Source: a virus
Reading direction: 5' to 3' (one strand)
Virus record (IMG/VR): IMGVR_UViG_3300044797_000098
Coordinates: 62,001 to 126,000 of that record
DNA: 64,000 nt
Shown here: positions 39,314 to 56,914 of the stretch, piece by piece
Numbering within the stretch: position 1 is the stretch's first letter
Layout: each line of letters opens with the position of its first letter
Translations under genes and position numbers: made by a program
Notes under the pieces: generated by a model
Seen by the model: the letters and a program-made list of their open reading frames with translations, nothing else
Database searches by the model: none
What the model was told of the DNA's origin: nothing

Positions 39314-40413
39314 TATATGTGCAATACATTCTTTGCAAAATTAGCGATTAGATTCATAACATTATTCCAAAAATTAGGAGGCAATGTTGGATGAGCAGGT
39401 CGTGCCGGTGATGGCGCAACTGCATCGGGATTTGGTGCAGGATCTGTTGGATGGATAGGATCCGGCGCTGCTACGACTGTTGGCAATGATGGAACTATTA
39501 CAGGTATTGCTATTGATACCACTGCACCTTGTAAAACTGTTTTTGTTGCTGGGCCTGCAATTCCATCAACTGGAAGCCCATGTGTTGATTGAAATGCTTC
39601 AATCGCTGCTATGGTTTTTGGTCCGTTATTACCGTCTTCTATTAGTGGTGTTCCTGCGCCTCCTAATAGATTCAATGCATGCTGAACATCTACCATTGTA
39701 TTGATTGGTGTCCCTACTGGTGGAGGTGGCGTTTGCGGAGCCGTATTGACCGTAGGAACGCTCGTTCCGGTCATTCTGGGGGTTTGTACGCCCCATAGGC
39801 TGAGGTCAATTGCAAGGTCGGTATCAACATTTACACCATTTGGAAGCTTTGCTGTTCCGCCACTGTTTTGCCATAATACATATGAGTTCCAAGGCTTTGG
39901 AATCATTGGACTATTTGCTTGATATGAGGCAATCCATAATGGGTAGTCTGCAAATTGTGCAGGATTTCCTATAGTTTGCATAAAGTTTGGATATGTGTAA
40001 ATTGGGATTTTTTTACCGCTCAGTCGTTCATATTCTTGGAGATATGTCAATGTCCATTCAACAATTTGATTTGCTGAGCAGCCCCACTTTTTCCAATCAT
40101 TTTGCATCGGCCATTCCAAATCCAAGCTCGCTAACTCACCAGCAGCAGCCTTAAAATGGAGCTGTGCTTGAATCACCGGATCTCGTGTTGGCTGTGAAGA
40201 TAGCGGAGGTAATGGAAACGCAAAATTATATGCCATTGGCAACATTCCTGCGTTTTTTGTTCCTGCTATATTTTTAGTGTAATTTATGTCTGTTCCGCTA
40301 TTGCCAATGGCACATCTGCTTATAATGAACTTTGTTCCCTGTTGTGCTAAAAGATCAAATTGCACTGTGCCTTGTATAACGCTGATATCGTAGCCCTTGT
40401 AAAAATTAGTCAT
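39313..40413 (-). CDS. Endolysin: GH25 muramidase with peptidoglycan-binding domain
   Basis: 366 residues. Residues 1-~210 form a GH25 lysozyme: G-Y-D-I-S (Asp9), L-D-L-E (Asp98 and Glu100, the catalytic pair), Y-T-Y-P-N-F and L-W-I-A-S-Y. A PG-binding-1-type domain (~230-300) has D-V-Q-H-A-L-N-L-L, then I-E-A-F-Q-S-T-H-G-L-P-V-D-G, and G-P-A-T-K. A proline-rich linker leads to a final amphipathic helix, F-W-N-N-V-M-N-L-I-A-N-F. It cleaves the glycan chain of peptidoglycan. There is no signal peptide, so a holin or membrane partner would be needed. Confidence 0.9.
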   Translation of the reverse strand: MTNFYKGYDISVIQGTVQFDLLAQQGTKFIISRCAIGNSGTDINYTKNIAGTKNAGMLPMAYNFAFPLPPLSSQPTRDPVIQAQLHFKAAAGELASLDLEWPMQNDWKKWGCSANQIVEWTLTYLQEYERLSGKKIPIYTYPNFMQTIGNPAQFADYPLWIASYQANSPMIPKPWNSYVLWQNSGGTAKLPNGVNVDTDLAIDLSLWGVQTPRMTGTSVPTVNTAPQTPPPPVGTPINTMVDVQHALNLLGGAGTPLIEDGNNGPKTIAAIEAFQSTHGLPVDGIAGPATKTVLQGAVVSIAIPVIVPSLPTVVAAPDPIHPTDPAPNPDAVAPSPARPAHPTLPPNFWNNVMNLIANFAKNVLHI

Positions 40414-41714
40414 TTATTACTTTCCTTTATCATTGGAATAATTTGTTCCATAACATATTTTTCTAACTTTGAACCAATATATTCTCTTCCATCGATCCAA
40501 ATTAATTTAATATTATTATCATCACATAATTGTTGTTTATAATTATCTCGTTCATGCTGATCTTTAAAATTAACTATTGCTCGTTCTAATGAAATACCAC
40601 CAAAACAAACTGGCTGGTAATGTTGCCTACCATTATATTCAATTATAGTATTTATTAATGGTAAATAAAAATCTGCTCTTAAATTTTTATCTACATTTGG
40701 AATAATTTCTTTTATTAGTTTTTCATGTTGAAACTTGATACCACTTAATTTGAGTAAATCAAATATCAATTTTGCATTTTTTCCGACCCCACACGCTGGG
40801 CACCCCTCTTCGCGATTTAATATGCCTTTTGGCTTTGCCTTCCAAATATAGCCACAATCATTTACTAAGCACTGAAAATCAATTGCCGTATGATTATTTA
40901 TATAATCTCCTAATCTTTTGACATTTCTATTTTTTAATCGTTCATCAACGTTTTGATTATTTAGTTTCAATGTGCCGGCGCATTGCGGACAACCATTGAT
41001 ATTATTAGGAATAATTTGCCAAACATATCCGCATCCGTCTATCAAACACTTAAATCTACATAAGGTCGCACCATTAATAATTTCATCCATTCTTTGGATA
41101 TTTTTACCAATTAGTCTTTCATCAACAATTTTATTGTTTAATGGAAGTTTTCCCCCACATCGCGGACAGCCTGTTTTGTTATTTAACACACCATTCGGTG
41201 ATGTCTTCCATATAAAATTGCAGCCCTGTATTAAACACTGAAAACCAATTTCAGTCATAGCATTTACACAATTATCTAGTCTTCTTATATTTCTTTCACC
41301 TAATCGTTGATCAATAATTTTATTTGTTAATGGAGCTAAGCCAGCACATTGAGGACATCCACTTTTAATATTTAAAATACTAGCGGGGGCTGCATTCCAA
41401 ATATATCCACAAGTATTTACTAAACATTCAAAATCTATTTCAGTATGATTATTTACATAATTTCCTATTCTTTTAATATTTCTATTTATTAATTTTTCAT
41501 CAATAACTTTATTATTTAATTTAGCATTACCTGAGCATTGTGGGCAGCCGTGCCCACCAAAAATATCGTCTGTCCTAGTTTTCCAAATATACATACAAGT
41601 TTCTACTAAACATTGAAAATTAATAGCAGTCCAACTATTTATATAGTTATCTAGCCTTTTGATTTTTCTATCGACTAATCTGGTATCGACAATATCATTA
41701 TTTAGCTTTTTCAT
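40410..41714 (-). CDS. Multi-zinc-ribbon nuclease with Vsr-like catalytic domain
   Basis: 434 residues from the ATG at 41714; a TTG at 41756 lies inside the tubulin-like gene and is less likely, though GGAAACGTAG precedes it. Five tandem ~67-residue units each carry C-L-(V/I)-x-x-C-x-(Y/F)-(I/V)-W and G-C-P-x-C, so five zinc ribbons in a row. The C-terminal ~110 residues, R-A-D-F-Y-L-P then I-I-E-Y-N-G-R-Q-H-Y and I-K-L-I-W-I-D, match a Vsr/EDxHD-type PD-(D/E)xK fold. This architecture is seen in homing-like nucleases, where ribbons read DNA. The same end motif recurs at 55871-56899. ATGA overlap with the endolysin gene. Confidence 0.75.
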   Translation of the reverse strand: MKKLNNDIVDTRLVDRKIKRLDNYINSWTAINFQCLVETCMYIWKTRTDDIFGGHGCPQCSGNAKLNNKVIDEKLINRNIKRIGNYVNNHTEIDFECLVNTCGYIWNAAPASILNIKSGCPQCAGLAPLTNKIIDQRLGERNIRRLDNCVNAMTEIGFQCLIQGCNFIWKTSPNGVLNNKTGCPRCGGKLPLNNKIVDERLIGKNIQRMDEIINGATLCRFKCLIDGCGYVWQIIPNNINGCPQCAGTLKLNNQNVDERLKNRNVKRLGDYINNHTAIDFQCLVNDCGYIWKAKPKGILNREEGCPACGVGKNAKLIFDLLKLSGIKFQHEKLIKEIIPNVDKNLRADFYLPLINTIIEYNGRQHYQPVCFGGISLERAIVNFKDQHERDNYKQQLCDDNNIKLIWIDGREYIGSKLEKYVMEQIIPMIKESNK

Positions 41715-41739
41715 TTTATTTTTAAATAACGTGTATTTA

Positions 41740-43152
41740 TTACTTTCTTCGATCAACTACGTTTCCGCCAACGAACTTTCCAAATGTACTAGTTTTATTA
41801 GCAATTTTATCTTTGATTTTTTGTGCATCACTTATTGTTGTATTTTTCCCAGTATTTAGGGCTACGTTTAAATTACGTGCAGTTTCTTTTTCTTTAACAA
41901 CACTTGATAGATTTTTTATTTCTTCTGTTAGTTGTGTGGTGCGTTCTGCTGGAATACCGAGCCCCGAGAAAAATGAATAAATCTTAACAACATTTCGTGG
42001 TTCATCTATTTCATATATTCCTCGAAATATTTCAGGAGTTCCACACTGTTCTGTCAATAGCGCATTAGCATAATTGATTGCAACGGCTGGAATATCTTTC
42101 CAGCATGTCTTATTTGCTGCTACAATAAATCCAACATATTTACTCTCCTTGATATTAAATCCACTCGCAAGTAAATTATTATTCATATTTGAAATTATAG
42201 CTTCTGCAATCGAAGTCTCGGAACTATAATCTTCTATCTCCATTGAACCATATGTAGAATAACCTGATGAATCGATTAGAATTTTAAGCCATTCCATACT
42301 ATCTAAACTTTTAATCGATGATGGTGATGATGATAGGATATTGAACATATCCAGTGGTTCAACTATCGCTTTATTTGCAACCGAATAAAAATCCATTTGG
42401 CCCACATTAGAATAAATTGCCTCTATTCTTGCATTATCCACTAAAATAATATTAGCAACCTTTTTATTTTGTAAGTCTTTTGATAGAACCGCTAATGTTT
42501 CCATGGCATTAGATTTTGCCTTAAGATCCTCTGAATGCATTGGCAATATGCCAATAATTATAATTGGTTTTCCTAATTCATTTAATATATTTACTAATAC
42601 CTCACAACTACCAGCTCCGCTTCCACCGCCCAATGATGAGCATAACACAAATACTTGCGCATCGCCTAACTGCTTGCTAACCATTTCCTTGATAGCATCA
42701 GCATTAGCTTCCGCTGCATCTCTACCAATACTTAGTGTTCGTGCAGCGCCACCGATAGTATTGTACTCCAATAATAATTTATTACTTTCAGGAACATCTA
42801 TATACTTAAGATCATTCTGCGTCGTATTTAATACAACGCAATCATAGTTAAATTCACGAAACTGCTGGGCTAATTTACTTCCCGCTTGTCCTGATCCAAT
42901 TATTCCAAAATTAATTGATCGTTCCTTTTTTACTGGCTTTACACTCATTGTTTCCTCTTGTTTAACTATATCAATATCTTTCGTTTTTTCTGCTAATTTT
43001 GCTTTTAATTTTGCGAGTTTTTCTTGATCGATATCCATTGCTGGCTGTTCGTTTGTTATGTCATCCACAATGGTTTCTTCTACTAAGTTTAGTTTTGTAG
43101 TCTGAGCGCTCATTTTAGTTTTTCCCTTTTCATTTACGAATCCACTGCCCAT
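41740..43152 (-). CDS. Tubulin/FtsZ-like GTPase with N-terminal extension
   Basis: 470 residues. The GTPase domain starts at ~81 with F-G-I-I-G-S-G-Q-A-G-S-K, then T-I-G-G-A-A-R-T-L-S-I-G-R-D-A, and the tubulin signature L-G-G-G-S-G-A-G-S (174-182), the loop that holds GTP phosphates. P-I-I-I-I-G-I-L-P and A-N-I-I-L-V-D-N-A-R follow. Phage relatives (PhuZ) and plasmid TubZ are ~300-480 residues; the first ~80 residues here are charged and helical and not part of the core. It should polymerise with GTP into filaments that position DNA or particles. GGATTAAATT precedes the ATG. A clear ~70-residue C-terminal tail with basic ends could contact DNA or a partner. Confidence 0.9.
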   Translation of the reverse strand: MGSGFVNEKGKTKMSAQTTKLNLVEETIVDDITNEQPAMDIDQEKLAKLKAKLAEKTKDIDIVKQEETMSVKPVKKERSINFGIIGSGQAGSKLAQQFREFNYDCVVLNTTQNDLKYIDVPESNKLLLEYNTIGGAARTLSIGRDAAEANADAIKEMVSKQLGDAQVFVLCSSLGGGSGAGSCEVLVNILNELGKPIIIIGILPMHSEDLKAKSNAMETLAVLSKDLQNKKVANIILVDNARIEAIYSNVGQMDFYSVANKAIVEPLDMFNILSSSPSSIKSLDSMEWLKILIDSSGYSTYGSMEIEDYSSETSIAEAIISNMNNNLLASGFNIKESKYVGFIVAANKTCWKDIPAVAINYANALLTEQCGTPEIFRGIYEIDEPRNVVKIYSFFSGLGIPAERTTQLTEEIKNLSSVVKEKETARNLNVALNTGKNTTISDAQKIKDKIANKTSTFGKFVGGNVVDRRK

Positions 43153-43196: not shown

Positions 43197-45284
43197 TTAT
43201 TTTAGAAACCACGGATTTTTTTGATACCAATTAACCGTAGTGGCGATGCCATCTTTAAATTTTATCTTTGATTTCCAATTTAATTCATTTTTGATTTTAT
43301 CGCAATTTACCGAATAACGAAAGTCATGCCCATTGCCACGAGGATCTGTAATATGTTCCACAAGATTATGACCGCCACCCATGGCATTGCATACTTCTTG
43401 CACAACCTCTATATTGGAGTATTCTTGATTTGATGATATATTATATATTGTATTTACTTTATCAGATCCTAATATGGATAGCAACGCATCACAATTATCA
43501 TCAACAAATGTCCATTCACGAAGAAACGAGCCATTGCCATACACTGGTATCTTTTGATTATTCATAATTGATTTTATTATTACTGGAATAAGTTTCTCTG
43601 ATTGTCTCGGGCCATAATTATTTGACGCGCGAGTAATTACATATGGAAGTCCGAATGAGTTATTCGCTGCTTTGATTATTAACTCACCTGACGCTTTTGA
43701 GGCACTGTATGGATTTTTAGGATCTAATGGCGCCTCTTCTGTCCAAGGAAGGTCATTGGGTGATTTCAACGCGCCCATAACTTCGTCAGTATTTCCTGAA
43801 AAAGCAATCTTGCCATTTCTTTCTATTAAAAAGTTTTTATTATCAGCAACTGTTAAGCACCATATTTTTCCCTTATACTGTTGTCTTGTTGGTTTTGGAA
43901 GTAATATTAAACGTTGATTGGCAAATCCAACGTCATTGGCATCACCTGCAATTTTTCTTCCATTTATAAATGATTCGCAATGCCTTCTACCAACGTTAGG
44001 CTGGCATCCCAGCATCGCTCCCAAATAACATAATTGTGCTGTTAATTTTTCTGAAACCGTTGTTATTTGTGGAACACGTCCTTTAATACCAAATCCATGT
44101 CCATCGGAATCATGTATACCTCGCCATAATAATTTTAATAAATCTGTTCCGTGATTAAACATCCATTCTGGAATATGTTTATTTTTAGCGTACTTACCAA
44201 AGTTATCAAAAAACTCCATCCATTCTTTTGATCCAAAATATACGTGTTCGCCAGATTTTCCTTTTTGCAGACTATATTTTATATTAAGTGTAGTTAATGC
44301 TATCTCTAATGATTTTCTGGCTTTATCATTTTCTGGAACATCGAAAAATATTCTATATGAACGACTTAATGTCGTTTCTTGCGAACCACGTTTTTCTGGT
44401 TTTAAAAATCTACCAGTTTTTGGATCTCTACCTAATTTCAATCTTTCTTGATATGAAAGACCGCTTTTATTATGTGTTATCTTTTCTTGATATGCAGTAA
44501 ATCCATCTCCAATATATACTCCGCATAAATAAAATAATGCTCTTGCATCTACCATTCCTATGTTTGGAACATTTATTTGTTCTGCTGATATTTTATTTAT
44601 CTCACCTCTCGGTAAATAATTTTTTTCTTCGGAAATCTCTAATTCTTCCGCAGTATACCATTGTAATTTACAAATTTCATTTGTGGGGTGATCTGCACAT
44701 ATAAATCTATGATTAGGTGTAACAACTAAATCTGTCCTTTTACTATCAAAATGCATCATATCACCATCATAATCCTGAACTATTATTTTTTTAATTGGCT
44801 TCTCTTCCACACTACCGGTATCAGGATTAATTGTTAAAACTAATTCATTTTCTTTTAATTCTTGCCAGGTTTTAAATCCGTTTTTTGTTACTGCTCTTGT
44901 TTGCTCATCATAACAAGATGTATATACTAATTTCTTAACTCCCCATTTCACACAAGCATTCACAATAACTTGTGTCCCGAGAACATTAGAACGAATGAAC
45001 TCATTAGGATTTTTTAATGAGTCATCAACGAAGCTACAAGCAGCAGCGTGCAAAACAATTTCTGGTTTCACATACTCAAAAATCCTATTTATAATATGTT
45101 CATCGCATATATCTGCAAGATAGAATGAGTGGCTTTTGTGTTCGTAGATATTATTTAATAATGATGATTTAGATATTCTATCGATAGATACTATATCATA
45201 TGGAACTTTATCGTAAATTGCTTTACGAATAAAATTAGACATTATAAATCCACAGGAGCCTGTAATTAGTAATTTCTGTTTCAT
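43197..45284 (-). CDS. Intein-containing NAD-dependent nucleotide-sugar dehydratase/epimerase (SDR)
   Basis: 695 residues, of which 320 are the enzyme. The N-extein (1-123) has T-G-S-C-G-F-I-M for NAD binding, I-V-S-I-D, L-H-A-A-A, and ends V-Y-T-S. The C-extein (499-695) starts T-D-E-V-M-G, so splicing recreates S-T-D-E-V-x-G, the catalytic Thr-Asp-Glu of dTDP-glucose 4,6-dehydratase-type enzymes; Y-S-A-S-K (526-530) gives the Tyr and Lys. V-Y-G-N-G-S-F-L-R-E-W-T is the sugar-binding loop. Length after splicing is 320, normal for the family. It makes a keto-deoxy sugar nucleotide for the adjacent glycosyltransferases, by inference. ATGA overlap with the upstream GT2 gene. Confidence 0.9.
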   Translation of the reverse strand: MKQKLLITGSCGFIMSNFIRKAIYDKVPYDIVSIDRISKSSLLNNIYEHKSHSFYLADICDEHIINRIFEYVKPEIVLHAAACSFVDDSLKNPNEFIRSNVLGTQVIVNACVKWGVKKLVYTSCYDEQTRAVTKNGFKTWQELKENELVLTINPDTGSVEEKPIKKIIVQDYDGDMMHFDSKRTDLVVTPNHRFICADHPTNEICKLQWYTAEELEISEEKNYLPRGEINKISAEQINVPNIGMVDARALFYLCGVYIGDGFTAYQEKITHNKSGLSYQERLKLGRDPKTGRFLKPEKRGSQETTLSRSYRIFFDVPENDKARKSLEIALTTLNIKYSLQKGKSGEHVYFGSKEWMEFFDNFGKYAKNKHIPEWMFNHGTDLLKLLWRGIHDSDGHGFGIKGRVPQITTVSEKLTAQLCYLGAMLGCQPNVGRRHCESFINGRKIAGDANDVGFANQRLILLPKPTRQQYKGKIWCLTVADNKNFLIERNGKIAFSGNTDEVMGALKSPNDLPWTEEAPLDPKNPYSASKASGELIIKAANNSFGLPYVITRASNNYGPRQSEKLIPVIIKSIMNNQKIPVYGNGSFLREWTFVDDNCDALLSILGSDKVNTIYNISSNQEYSNIEVVQEVCNAMGGGHNLVEHITDPRGNGHDFRYSVNCDKIKNELNWKSKIKFKDGIATTVNWYQKNPWFLK
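43791..44915 (-). mobile_element. LAGLIDADG-type intein inside the sugar dehydratase
   Basis: 375 residues, Cys124 to Asn498 of the host protein. Block A begins C-Y-D-E-Q-T-R-A-V; block B has V-V-T-P-N-H-R-F; two LAGLIDADG-like helices are L-C-G-V-Y-I-G-D-G and L-L-W-R-G-I-H-D-S-D-G; block F has W-C-L-T-V-A-D-N-K-N-F-L-I; and the end is A-F-S-G-N followed by Thr. The residue before the last Asn is Gly, not the usual His. Both homing-endonuclease helices keep an acidic residue, so nuclease activity may remain. The +1 residue is the catalytic Thr of the host enzyme, which explains targeting a conserved active-site codon. Confidence 0.9.
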
Positions 45285-46120
45285 TTTTTACTCTTGTATA
45301 GATTATAGTTTGGATTACTTGTATATAATTGATGATCTTCCTTTATTACATTACCCCATTTTTTGCGGAATAGATTTACATTATGTTGCATAAATAGACG
45401 ATTTGTTTTTGTTGTTTTTAACGTTGCGGATTCTTCGTGAAAGATATTTGTTTCACCGCAATATACAACTTTTTTATTCATATTAAATTTGATAGATAGA
45501 TTCATATCAATATCGTCGAACGCCCAAATAAATTGCTCGTCAAATCCGTTTAATCCGCTCTTGTTCGTTTTACAAGTATTCTCAAATAATCCGGCACGAA
45601 TTAATAATACTGCTCCTGTGCAAGCGTTGAACTCACGATTCTTTCGTGCATTCGCATCTTCCATCTCACCTAACCTATAATGCCAAGGAAGCATGTCTTT
45701 ATTACGATCCCATTCTATCCCAGCGTGTTGCAATTTTCTTGTATCGGTATAATTTAGTTTTGCGCCAACAACACCGACATCATCATCGTTATCCATAATT
45801 TTCATCATATTTTTGATTGACGCAGTATCGTTGAAAACTATATCATTATTCAATAATAATATGTAATCACTTTCTTTTGGTGATGCTTCCTTGAATAAAA
45901 CATTACATCCTTGTGCGAAGTTTTGTAAATTATCCTTCCATTGTATTGGAACTATATTAGGATTATTCAATCCATTTAGATATTCTATCGAACCATCATT
46001 AGAACCATTTTCTTTTACTAACCATTTGTAATCAATGTTATTTAGTGATTTGATTAGTGTTGGAGCAAGTTTTTCTAATTTAGATTTACCGTTCCAAGTA
46101 AGCGTCAATATATATAACAT
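45281..46120 (-). CDS. Family 2 glycosyltransferase
   Basis: 279 residues. GT-A fold features: L-T-L-T-W-N-G-K near the N-terminus, V-K-E-N-G-S-N-D-G-S, L-L-N-N-D-I-V-F (the DxD-like metal site), E-F-N-A-C-T-G-A-V-L, and D-E-Q-F-I-W-A-F-D-D-I-D, which resembles rhamnosyl- and related transferases. No membrane anchor. Overlaps the dehydratase gene by ATGA and follows the membrane protein gene as TAAATG, so it is in one operon with them. Confidence 0.88.
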   Translation of the reverse strand: MLYILTLTWNGKSKLEKLAPTLIKSLNNIDYKWLVKENGSNDGSIEYLNGLNNPNIVPIQWKDNLQNFAQGCNVLFKEASPKESDYILLLNNDIVFNDTASIKNMMKIMDNDDDVGVVGAKLNYTDTRKLQHAGIEWDRNKDMLPWHYRLGEMEDANARKNREFNACTGAVLLIRAGLFENTCKTNKSGLNGFDEQFIWAFDDIDMNLSIKFNMNKKVVYCGETNIFHEESATLKTTKTNRLFMQHNVNLFRKKWGNVIKEDHQLYTSNPNYNLYKSKK

Positions 46121-55870: not shown

Positions 55871-56899
55871 TTATGTCACATTATTACGATTACGATCATA
55901 TTTACCGATTTTAGCAAAATAACATTGTTGGCACCAACTTCCGTCTTTTATCACTCCCGGTGGGTAGGCATCCCAAATATGGTTATTTTGACATTTAAAT
56001 TTCATAGATTTCCAATTATAGTATTCTGATAGGCATTCACCACCGTTGTTTTTAGCGATCATTCTAGCATCTTCAATAGTATATTTTCTATTTGTTGGTA
56101 CCAAAATTCCATTACTATCAAAACTGATTTTACCGTAGTATGCCTTACTTATATCTATGACAATATCATCAAAATTATTTGGTAAATTAATTTTTAATTC
56201 CATACATTGATTTTTAATTAATTGTTTTAAATCACTTAATTTAGTCATCGAAAATAACTCTGGTATAATTATTATTTTTGCCCCCATATTTTTTGCTAAT
56301 TGTATTTTATATACATCATTATATTTTAGTCTTTCAAACGCATCATTATTAATTTGTGAAAGTTTTACGTAGTGCTGTCTTCCATTATGTTCAAAACCTA
56401 TACCTAATTCTTTACAATATCCATCTAATTCTAATTTTCTACCTTTATCACCCATTAACCATTCTGGCCTAATCGATGGAAATGGTTTTCCAAAAATTTG
56501 CTCAAAATATTCCCTACATATTCGCTCATATAATGAACTTGAACAAATAGAGCACCATTGCCCATATTTTATATCGTTATAGCATCTTTGAAATTCATGC
56601 CCATAAAAACATTTTATTTTTAATGGCTTGTGAATGTGCTTATATTCACTTAAACATGTACCGCCCTTAGCTTCTATTGTGTCATTTACTTCTTTTTGTG
56701 TAAATTTTCTTGTACCACCACAGTCGGGACACCATCTTCCGCTCTTAATCGAGTAATATGGAGCGGACCACACATATCCACATTCAAAACATTTCCATTC
56801 CATTTTAGTACGCGCAGTTATATATATAACACTCAAACATTGTCCATTTTTTGATTTTGCTAAATTTTGCGCATCCTCAATGGTTAATTTTTTTGGCAT
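55871..56899 (-). CDS. Second zinc-ribbon/Vsr-like nuclease, inserted among structural genes
   Basis: 342 residues from the ATG at 56899, with AAGGAAATTG before it (a TTG at 56902 lies inside that signal). N-terminal I-E-D-A-Q-N-L-A-K and two ribbon units (W-K-C-F-E-C-G-Y-V-W, then W-C-P-D-C-G), a third with Y-G-H-E-F, and a further one at the C-terminus (C-Q-N-N-H-I-W-D, W-C-Q-Q-C). In between (residues ~150-220) is the catalytic region: L-E-L-D-G-Y-C, F-E-H-N-G-R-Q-H-Y and A-K-I-I-I-I-P-E. So the nuclease sits between ribbons, unlike the other copy. Likely a mobile homing-type gene in the structural operon. Confidence 0.75.
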   Translation of the reverse strand: MPKKLTIEDAQNLAKSKNGQCLSVIYITARTKMEWKCFECGYVWSAPYYSIKSGRWCPDCGGTRKFTQKEVNDTIEAKGGTCLSEYKHIHKPLKIKCFYGHEFQRCYNDIKYGQWCSICSSSLYERICREYFEQIFGKPFPSIRPEWLMGDKGRKLELDGYCKELGIGFEHNGRQHYVKLSQINNDAFERLKYNDVYKIQLAKNMGAKIIIIPELFSMTKLSDLKQLIKNQCMELKINLPNNFDDIVIDISKAYYGKISFDSNGILVPTNRKYTIEDARMIAKNNGGECLSEYYNWKSMKFKCQNNHIWDAYPPGVIKDGSWCQQCYFAKIGKYDRNRNNVT

Positions 56900-56914
56900 C
56901 AATTTCCTTACTCT

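Follow-up and report, generated by a model that had tools for sequence, protein, structure and literature searches.

What is the 375-residue segment that interrupts a phage nucleotide-sugar dehydratase immediately before its catalytic threonine, and does it control the enzyme or simply exploit it? The stretch of DNA that we analysed (hereafter the window, 64,000 nucleotides long) covers bases 62001-126000 of a 406,470-base IMG/VR virus record and contains, on its minus strand, one open reading frame of 695 amino acids with the following layout (coordinates are those of the window; slashes mark insertion junctions here and below):

43197..45284, minus strand: precursor gene (695 aa), RmlB-like nucleotide-sugar 4,6-dehydratase split by a predicted intein
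44916..45284, minus strand: N-extein, residues 1-123, ending in ...KLVYTS
43791..44915, minus strand: intein of 375 aa, residues 124-498, CYDEQT...IAFSGN, with predicted Hint splicing domain and LAGLIDADG homing endonuclease domain
43782..43790, minus strand: Thr-Asp-Glu triad of the dehydratase, its Thr being the predicted +1 splicing nucleophile
43200..43790, minus strand: C-extein, residues 499-695, starting with TDEVMG
43695..43709, minus strand: YSASK, the YxxxK catalytic motif; in the L003 phage, an unrelated intein lies between this Tyr and Ser

The original prediction placed an intein of 375 residues at 43791-44915, and the translation of the 695-aa frame reproduces both coordinates and length exactly. 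The junctions read ...KLVYTS/CYDEQT ... IAFSGN/TDEVMG..., with Cys1 and Asn at the two ends of the insert, as claimed. The proposal that the insertion separates a Ser from T-D-E is also borne out, as two intein-free homologues from other metagenomes (L001 and L002) read ...YTS/TDEVMG... through the same point with neither gap nor duplication; L004 is a further precise intein-free homologue. The Thr of T-D-E has an established catalytic role in RmlB. In alignments to the solved dehydratases 6bi4 and 1g1a, the residue following the intein falls on the first of the Thr-Asp-Glu triad, in agreement with the earlier identification of the +1 residue as the catalytic Thr, and the T-D-E and YxxxK catalytic residues are both present (alignment to 6bi4).

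The host protein is, as had been proposed, a nucleotide-sugar dehydratase of the SDR type, encoded within a glycosyltransferase cluster. It is matched by Pfam GDP_Man_Dehyd (E 1.9e-50) and by NCBIfam TIGR01181, dTDP-glucose 4,6-dehydratase (E 3.6e-90), both matches being split in two. Because the TIGR01181 scores of the intein-free L001 and L002 (327.6 and 328.2 bits) are below the equivalog cut-off of 365.1, we name the enzyme RmlB-like only, with dTDP-glucose as its likely, not proven, substrate. In this enzyme clade, the Rossmann motif (window 45240-45263, dehydratase residues 8-15) is GSCGFIM or GTAGFIL, not GxxGFIG, and the third Rossmann Gly is missing in intein-bearing and intein-free members alike. 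Two genes border the dehydratase:

45281..46120, minus strand: GT2 glycosyltransferase directly upstream, overlapping by 4 bases; order shared with L003, L042 and L059
41740..43152, minus strand: TubZ/FtsZ-like tubulin gene directly downstream; order shared with relatives

The inserted segment itself displays the succession of blocks of an intein that carries an endonuclease:

44913..44915, minus strand: Cys1, predicted N-terminal splicing nucleophile (block A); Cys in 15 of 15 family inteins
44709..44720, minus strand: block B, TPNH (TxxH; intein T66-H69); T66, P67 and H69 invariant in relatives
44502..44531, minus strand: LAGLIDADG motif 1, YLCGVYIGDG, with D137 retained; acidic residue kept in relatives
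44094..44123, minus strand: LAGLIDADG motif 2, RGIHDSDGHG, with D271 retained; acidic residue conserved
43827..43871, minus strand: block F, GKIWCLTVADNKNFL; C353 invariant in alignments
43791..43808, minus strand: block G, IAFSGN, with terminal Asn and penultimate Gly; Gly in 14 of 15 family inteins

The usual His of block F and the penultimate His are both absent. In a Pfam/NCBIfam search of the 695-aa frame, Intein_splicing matches between the two dehydratase parts; the Pfam match of the window intein (E 6.6e-6) has 26.4 bits, below the curated cut-off of 35.8 bits. An AlphaFold2 model of the intein, built from seven aligned inteins (pLDDT 80.3, pTM 0.81), matches the 2cw7, TliVMA, PhoVMA, PI-SceI and PI-PfuI inteins with E values of 1e-14 to 1e-12, and its endonuclease part matches I-DmoI. 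Judged by sequence and modelled fold, the element is a full-length class 1 intein with a LAGLIDADG endonuclease: it has Cys1, TxxH, the N375/T+1 junction, a Hint (horseshoe) fold, precise intein-free homologues and two LAGLIDADG motifs with conserved acidic residues, with Gly in the penultimate position where class 1 inteins commonly, but not obligatorily, have His. Assignment to class 3 was rejected, since Cys1 is present, there is no WCT triplet, and the G-block residue is Ser373, not Thr. The profile match, the fold and the relatives at the same junction in other phages together rule out a chance origin of the intein observation.

The class 1 inteins of LAGLIDADG/DOD type with solved structures, PI-SceI, PI-PfuI, TliVMA and PhoVMA, share with the window intein the fold, the block order, Cys1, TxxH, the terminal Asn and the two acidic motifs, but they are only 10-15% identical to it, lack its Gly in place of His and reside in different host proteins. 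Over its whole length, the window intein belongs to a family of the form CYDExT...RNG...(S/C)GN, with a Gly-Asn end, whose members occur in a glycosyltransferase (L090-L093), terminases (L094 and L199), a DNA polymerase (L197), RecT (L202) and a haloarchaeal SDR (L095); in the aligned parts these share about 25% identity with the window intein, and they have other hosts and other sites. The phage glycosyltransferase (e.g. L090:3001-4059) reads FIGQW/CYDEQT...SGN/TERKN, and in L092 and L093 an apparent second intein-like insert is found further along (GMPWCMSLNSLVKTESG...). In the haloarchaeal case, a MAG of Salinirussus (L095:1063-2112), the related intein lies inside the YxxxK of an SDR/epimerase-like enzyme (WYHQ/CYDNET...SGN/SKSHD), so that an SDR catalytic motif appears to have been invaded outside phages too.

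We favour, with a probability of roughly 0.87, the view that this is a selfish class 1 LAGLIDADG homing intein residing at the S/TDE site of a phage RmlB-like nucleotide-sugar 4,6-dehydratase, from which it is spliced out and from which it homes. The precursor would be translated as a single 695-aa chain; Cys1 would then initiate splicing, Thr+1, the catalytic Thr of TDE, would accept the branched intermediate, and Asn375 would cyclise, giving a ligated 320-aa enzyme with the layout seen in the intein-free relatives. Before splicing, the precursor should be inactive, as originally proposed. When a phage with an empty site co-infects, its TDE-encoding sequence is presumably cut by the endonuclease, and the intein would be copied into it. 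Catalytic codons would be favoured as targets because escape mutations are hard there and imprecise loss of the intein kills the enzyme.

Alternatively, the intein might be a regulated switch, with slow or condition-dependent splicing (responding to redox, temperature or timing) keeping the glycan enzyme off until needed. An insertion right at the catalytic Thr would provide tight off-control, Cys1 and the invariant Cys353 of block F might, in principle, act together as a redox trap, and conditional inteins are known elsewhere (PMC6195587, PMC5790916). The original prediction also read the penultimate Gly as a possible cause of slow or conditional splicing, an argument that fails: Gly is found in 14 of the 15 family inteins, including all five at the same site, and the Gly-ending members span dehydratases, glycosyltransferases, terminases, DNA polymerase, RNA polymerase, RecT and the haloarchaeal SDR. 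The RDF intein of mycobacteriophage Bethlehem gp51 is likewise a phage class 1 intein with an endonuclease and a penultimate Gly, although its host is a recombination directionality factor and we liken it by description, not by sequence; in a reporter it splices to completion, and changing its Gly to His slows it, so that about half is reached only after more than 5 hours (PMC5050341). Since Gly is the family norm and the RDF Gly intein splices fully, this residue is no evidence of a switch, and we reject it as a sign of either decay or slow splicing. No signs of splicing regulation were found. Furthermore, the nearest relatives have no intein, so the enzyme functions with no control of this kind, and homing into conserved codons already accounts for the catalytic-site position. 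A switch is therefore unlikely, and less likely still is the broader scenario in which the dehydratase active site is an intein hot spot and the inteins have been co-opted as post-translational on-switches timing glycan synthesis during infection, for instance through a Cys1-Cys353 redox trap.

The window enzyme is about 90% identical to its close intein-free relatives (94% for the C-terminal part of L001; 92% over the enzyme for L002). Extein dN/dS values between the window and L001, L002 and L003 are 0.076, 0.052 and 0.053, and that of the intein-free pair L001-L002 is 0.056. With such strong purifying selection on the exteins, a permanently broken dehydratase is not expected, which argues for a working enzyme being restored by splicing, although the dN/dS argument would be weaker had the insertion happened very recently. 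The same values bear on the idea that the intein is splicing-dead or only cleaves, leaving a dehydratase that is dead or functional in trans from two halves. The non-canonical residues of blocks F and G and the Pfam score under the cut-off would be compatible with such a defective element, and splicing is itself a prediction; nevertheless, purifying selection on the exteins is as strong as in the intein-free relatives, the frame is open throughout, and the junction and key block residues are conserved in five phages. We consider a dead intein quite improbable and regard the homing intein of the window as real and probably active.

Homologous inteins occupy the identical S/TDE junction in divergent phages (L059/L060, L183, L184 and L189), ending in SGN or CGN before TDE. 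L059 and L060 are two records with an identical same-site intein, whereas L183, L184 and L189 were recovered by searching for a degenerate xNTDEVYG pattern and by scanning with an alignment of four inteins. An assembly artefact, a group I intron or an unremoved in-frame endonuclease domain has a practically negligible probability, even if the window version is known from one metagenome record, given an in-frame insert with no stop, an intein fold and Cys and Asn/Thr junctions, and given same-site homologues in independent metagenomes, including the identical L059 and L060.

The five inteins at this site group together (88/82); pairwise identity is 43-55% for the inteins and 30-58% for their exteins. 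The intein is the better conserved part in nine of the ten pairs, window-L059 being the exception; the 95% interval of the intein-enzyme difference excludes zero for three of the four pairs of the window or L059 with L183 or L184, and also for L183-L184. Stronger conservation of the intein than of the enzyme around it, as seen in most pairs, points to lateral spread, and the pattern is best explained by one homing intein having moved laterally among phage dehydratases. Between the window and L059, no co-conversion tract was seen in the flanks. Synonymous divergence in this pair is 0.57 for the intein and 0.78 for the extein, a bootstrap-significant difference but one confounded by GC3 (0.17 in the intein, 0.27-0.31 in the extein); we dropped it as a sign of recent intein transfer because GC3 differs. 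Among the deposited phages of INPHARED, no dehydratase with a window-type intein was found, the full-length matches being about 20-27% identical and located in other genes or unannotated frames. When the window intein alone was used to scan IMG/VR, the patterns were too specific and gave zero matches; the L003 intein alone retrieved only L003 itself.

Our survey of IMG/VR comprised 82 distinct intein-free full-length dehydratase homologues. In the clade of the window enzyme there are three further insert carriers, L059/L060, L003 and L042, whose inserts are backed as inteins by Pfam and NCBIfam. In L003, whose gene order is like that of the window (glycosyltransferases, dehydratase, TubZ), an unrelated intein of 374 aa separates the catalytic Tyr from SASK (NPY/CLASDT...VHN/SASK), and L042 has a 345-aa intein, with Ser as its first residue, in another conserved motif (GAAE/SVREDT...VHN/THVD). 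On a tree of 41 enzymes, intein presence needs four changes, the starred branches force four, and for every carrier there is a sister or near neighbour without an intein. The three insertion junctions fall in the most conserved stretches of the enzyme (P about 0.001 for the mean of the three), which agrees with the documented tendency of inteins to occupy conserved sites (PMC2814812). Across different phages, predicted inteins have invaded this one enzyme family at three or more distinct catalytic positions. The mechanism, that of a selfish homing intein, is ordinary; the host gene and the recurrent invasion of catalytic codons are new as far as the searched literature shows: a search for inteins in rmlB found none, with incomplete coverage, so that such inteins may already have been reported.

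In mycobacteriophages, the best surveyed group, inteins are located in genes for DNA packaging, DNA modification and nucleotide metabolism (PMC5050341). A single conserved host gene with several conserved intein sites is also seen in the haloarchaeal MCM helicase (four sites, PMC10643990) and in Prp8 (seven sites, PMC6805012), but those hosts are replication and RNA-splicing proteins, whereas the host described here is a nucleotide-sugar enzyme of large phages. Unrelated inteins appear to have hit this sugar-nucleotide enzyme at three catalytic positions, and five divergent phage dehydratases share one intein that is specific to its site. That homing inteins persist at catalytic codons suggests strong selection on the dehydratase in large phages and, by extension, a glycan function of importance. 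Enzyme activity could also serve as a readout of splicing for the natural Gly-Asn inteins of this set.

These phages carry other apparent inteins and homing endonucleases. The genome that includes the window has a second intein, in a UvrD-like helicase (L006, G000:C1:323336-324334; DPKQ/CVDENT...SHN/SLYAFRGAD). In the phages of L003 and L059, L181 and L182 show an intein in ribonucleotide reductase with an apparent Gln end (TNP/CVSGDT...HTGQ/CGEQPL) and another in IMP dehydrogenase (GVGSG/CFAAGT...VHN/STCSTR). In the L184 phage, the CxxxCxxC of a radical SAM protein (L169:5232-6035) is apparently broken by an intein start (RGCPYSCLRGDTIIHTIDG). Within the window, the ORF adjoining TubZ (40410-41756) encodes repeated treble-clef zinc fingers (DUF4379) and a C-terminal nuclease-like part and looks like a free-standing homing endonuclease, and an HNH/homing endonuclease-like ORF (55871-56902; PHROG 559) is flanked by two very large genes.
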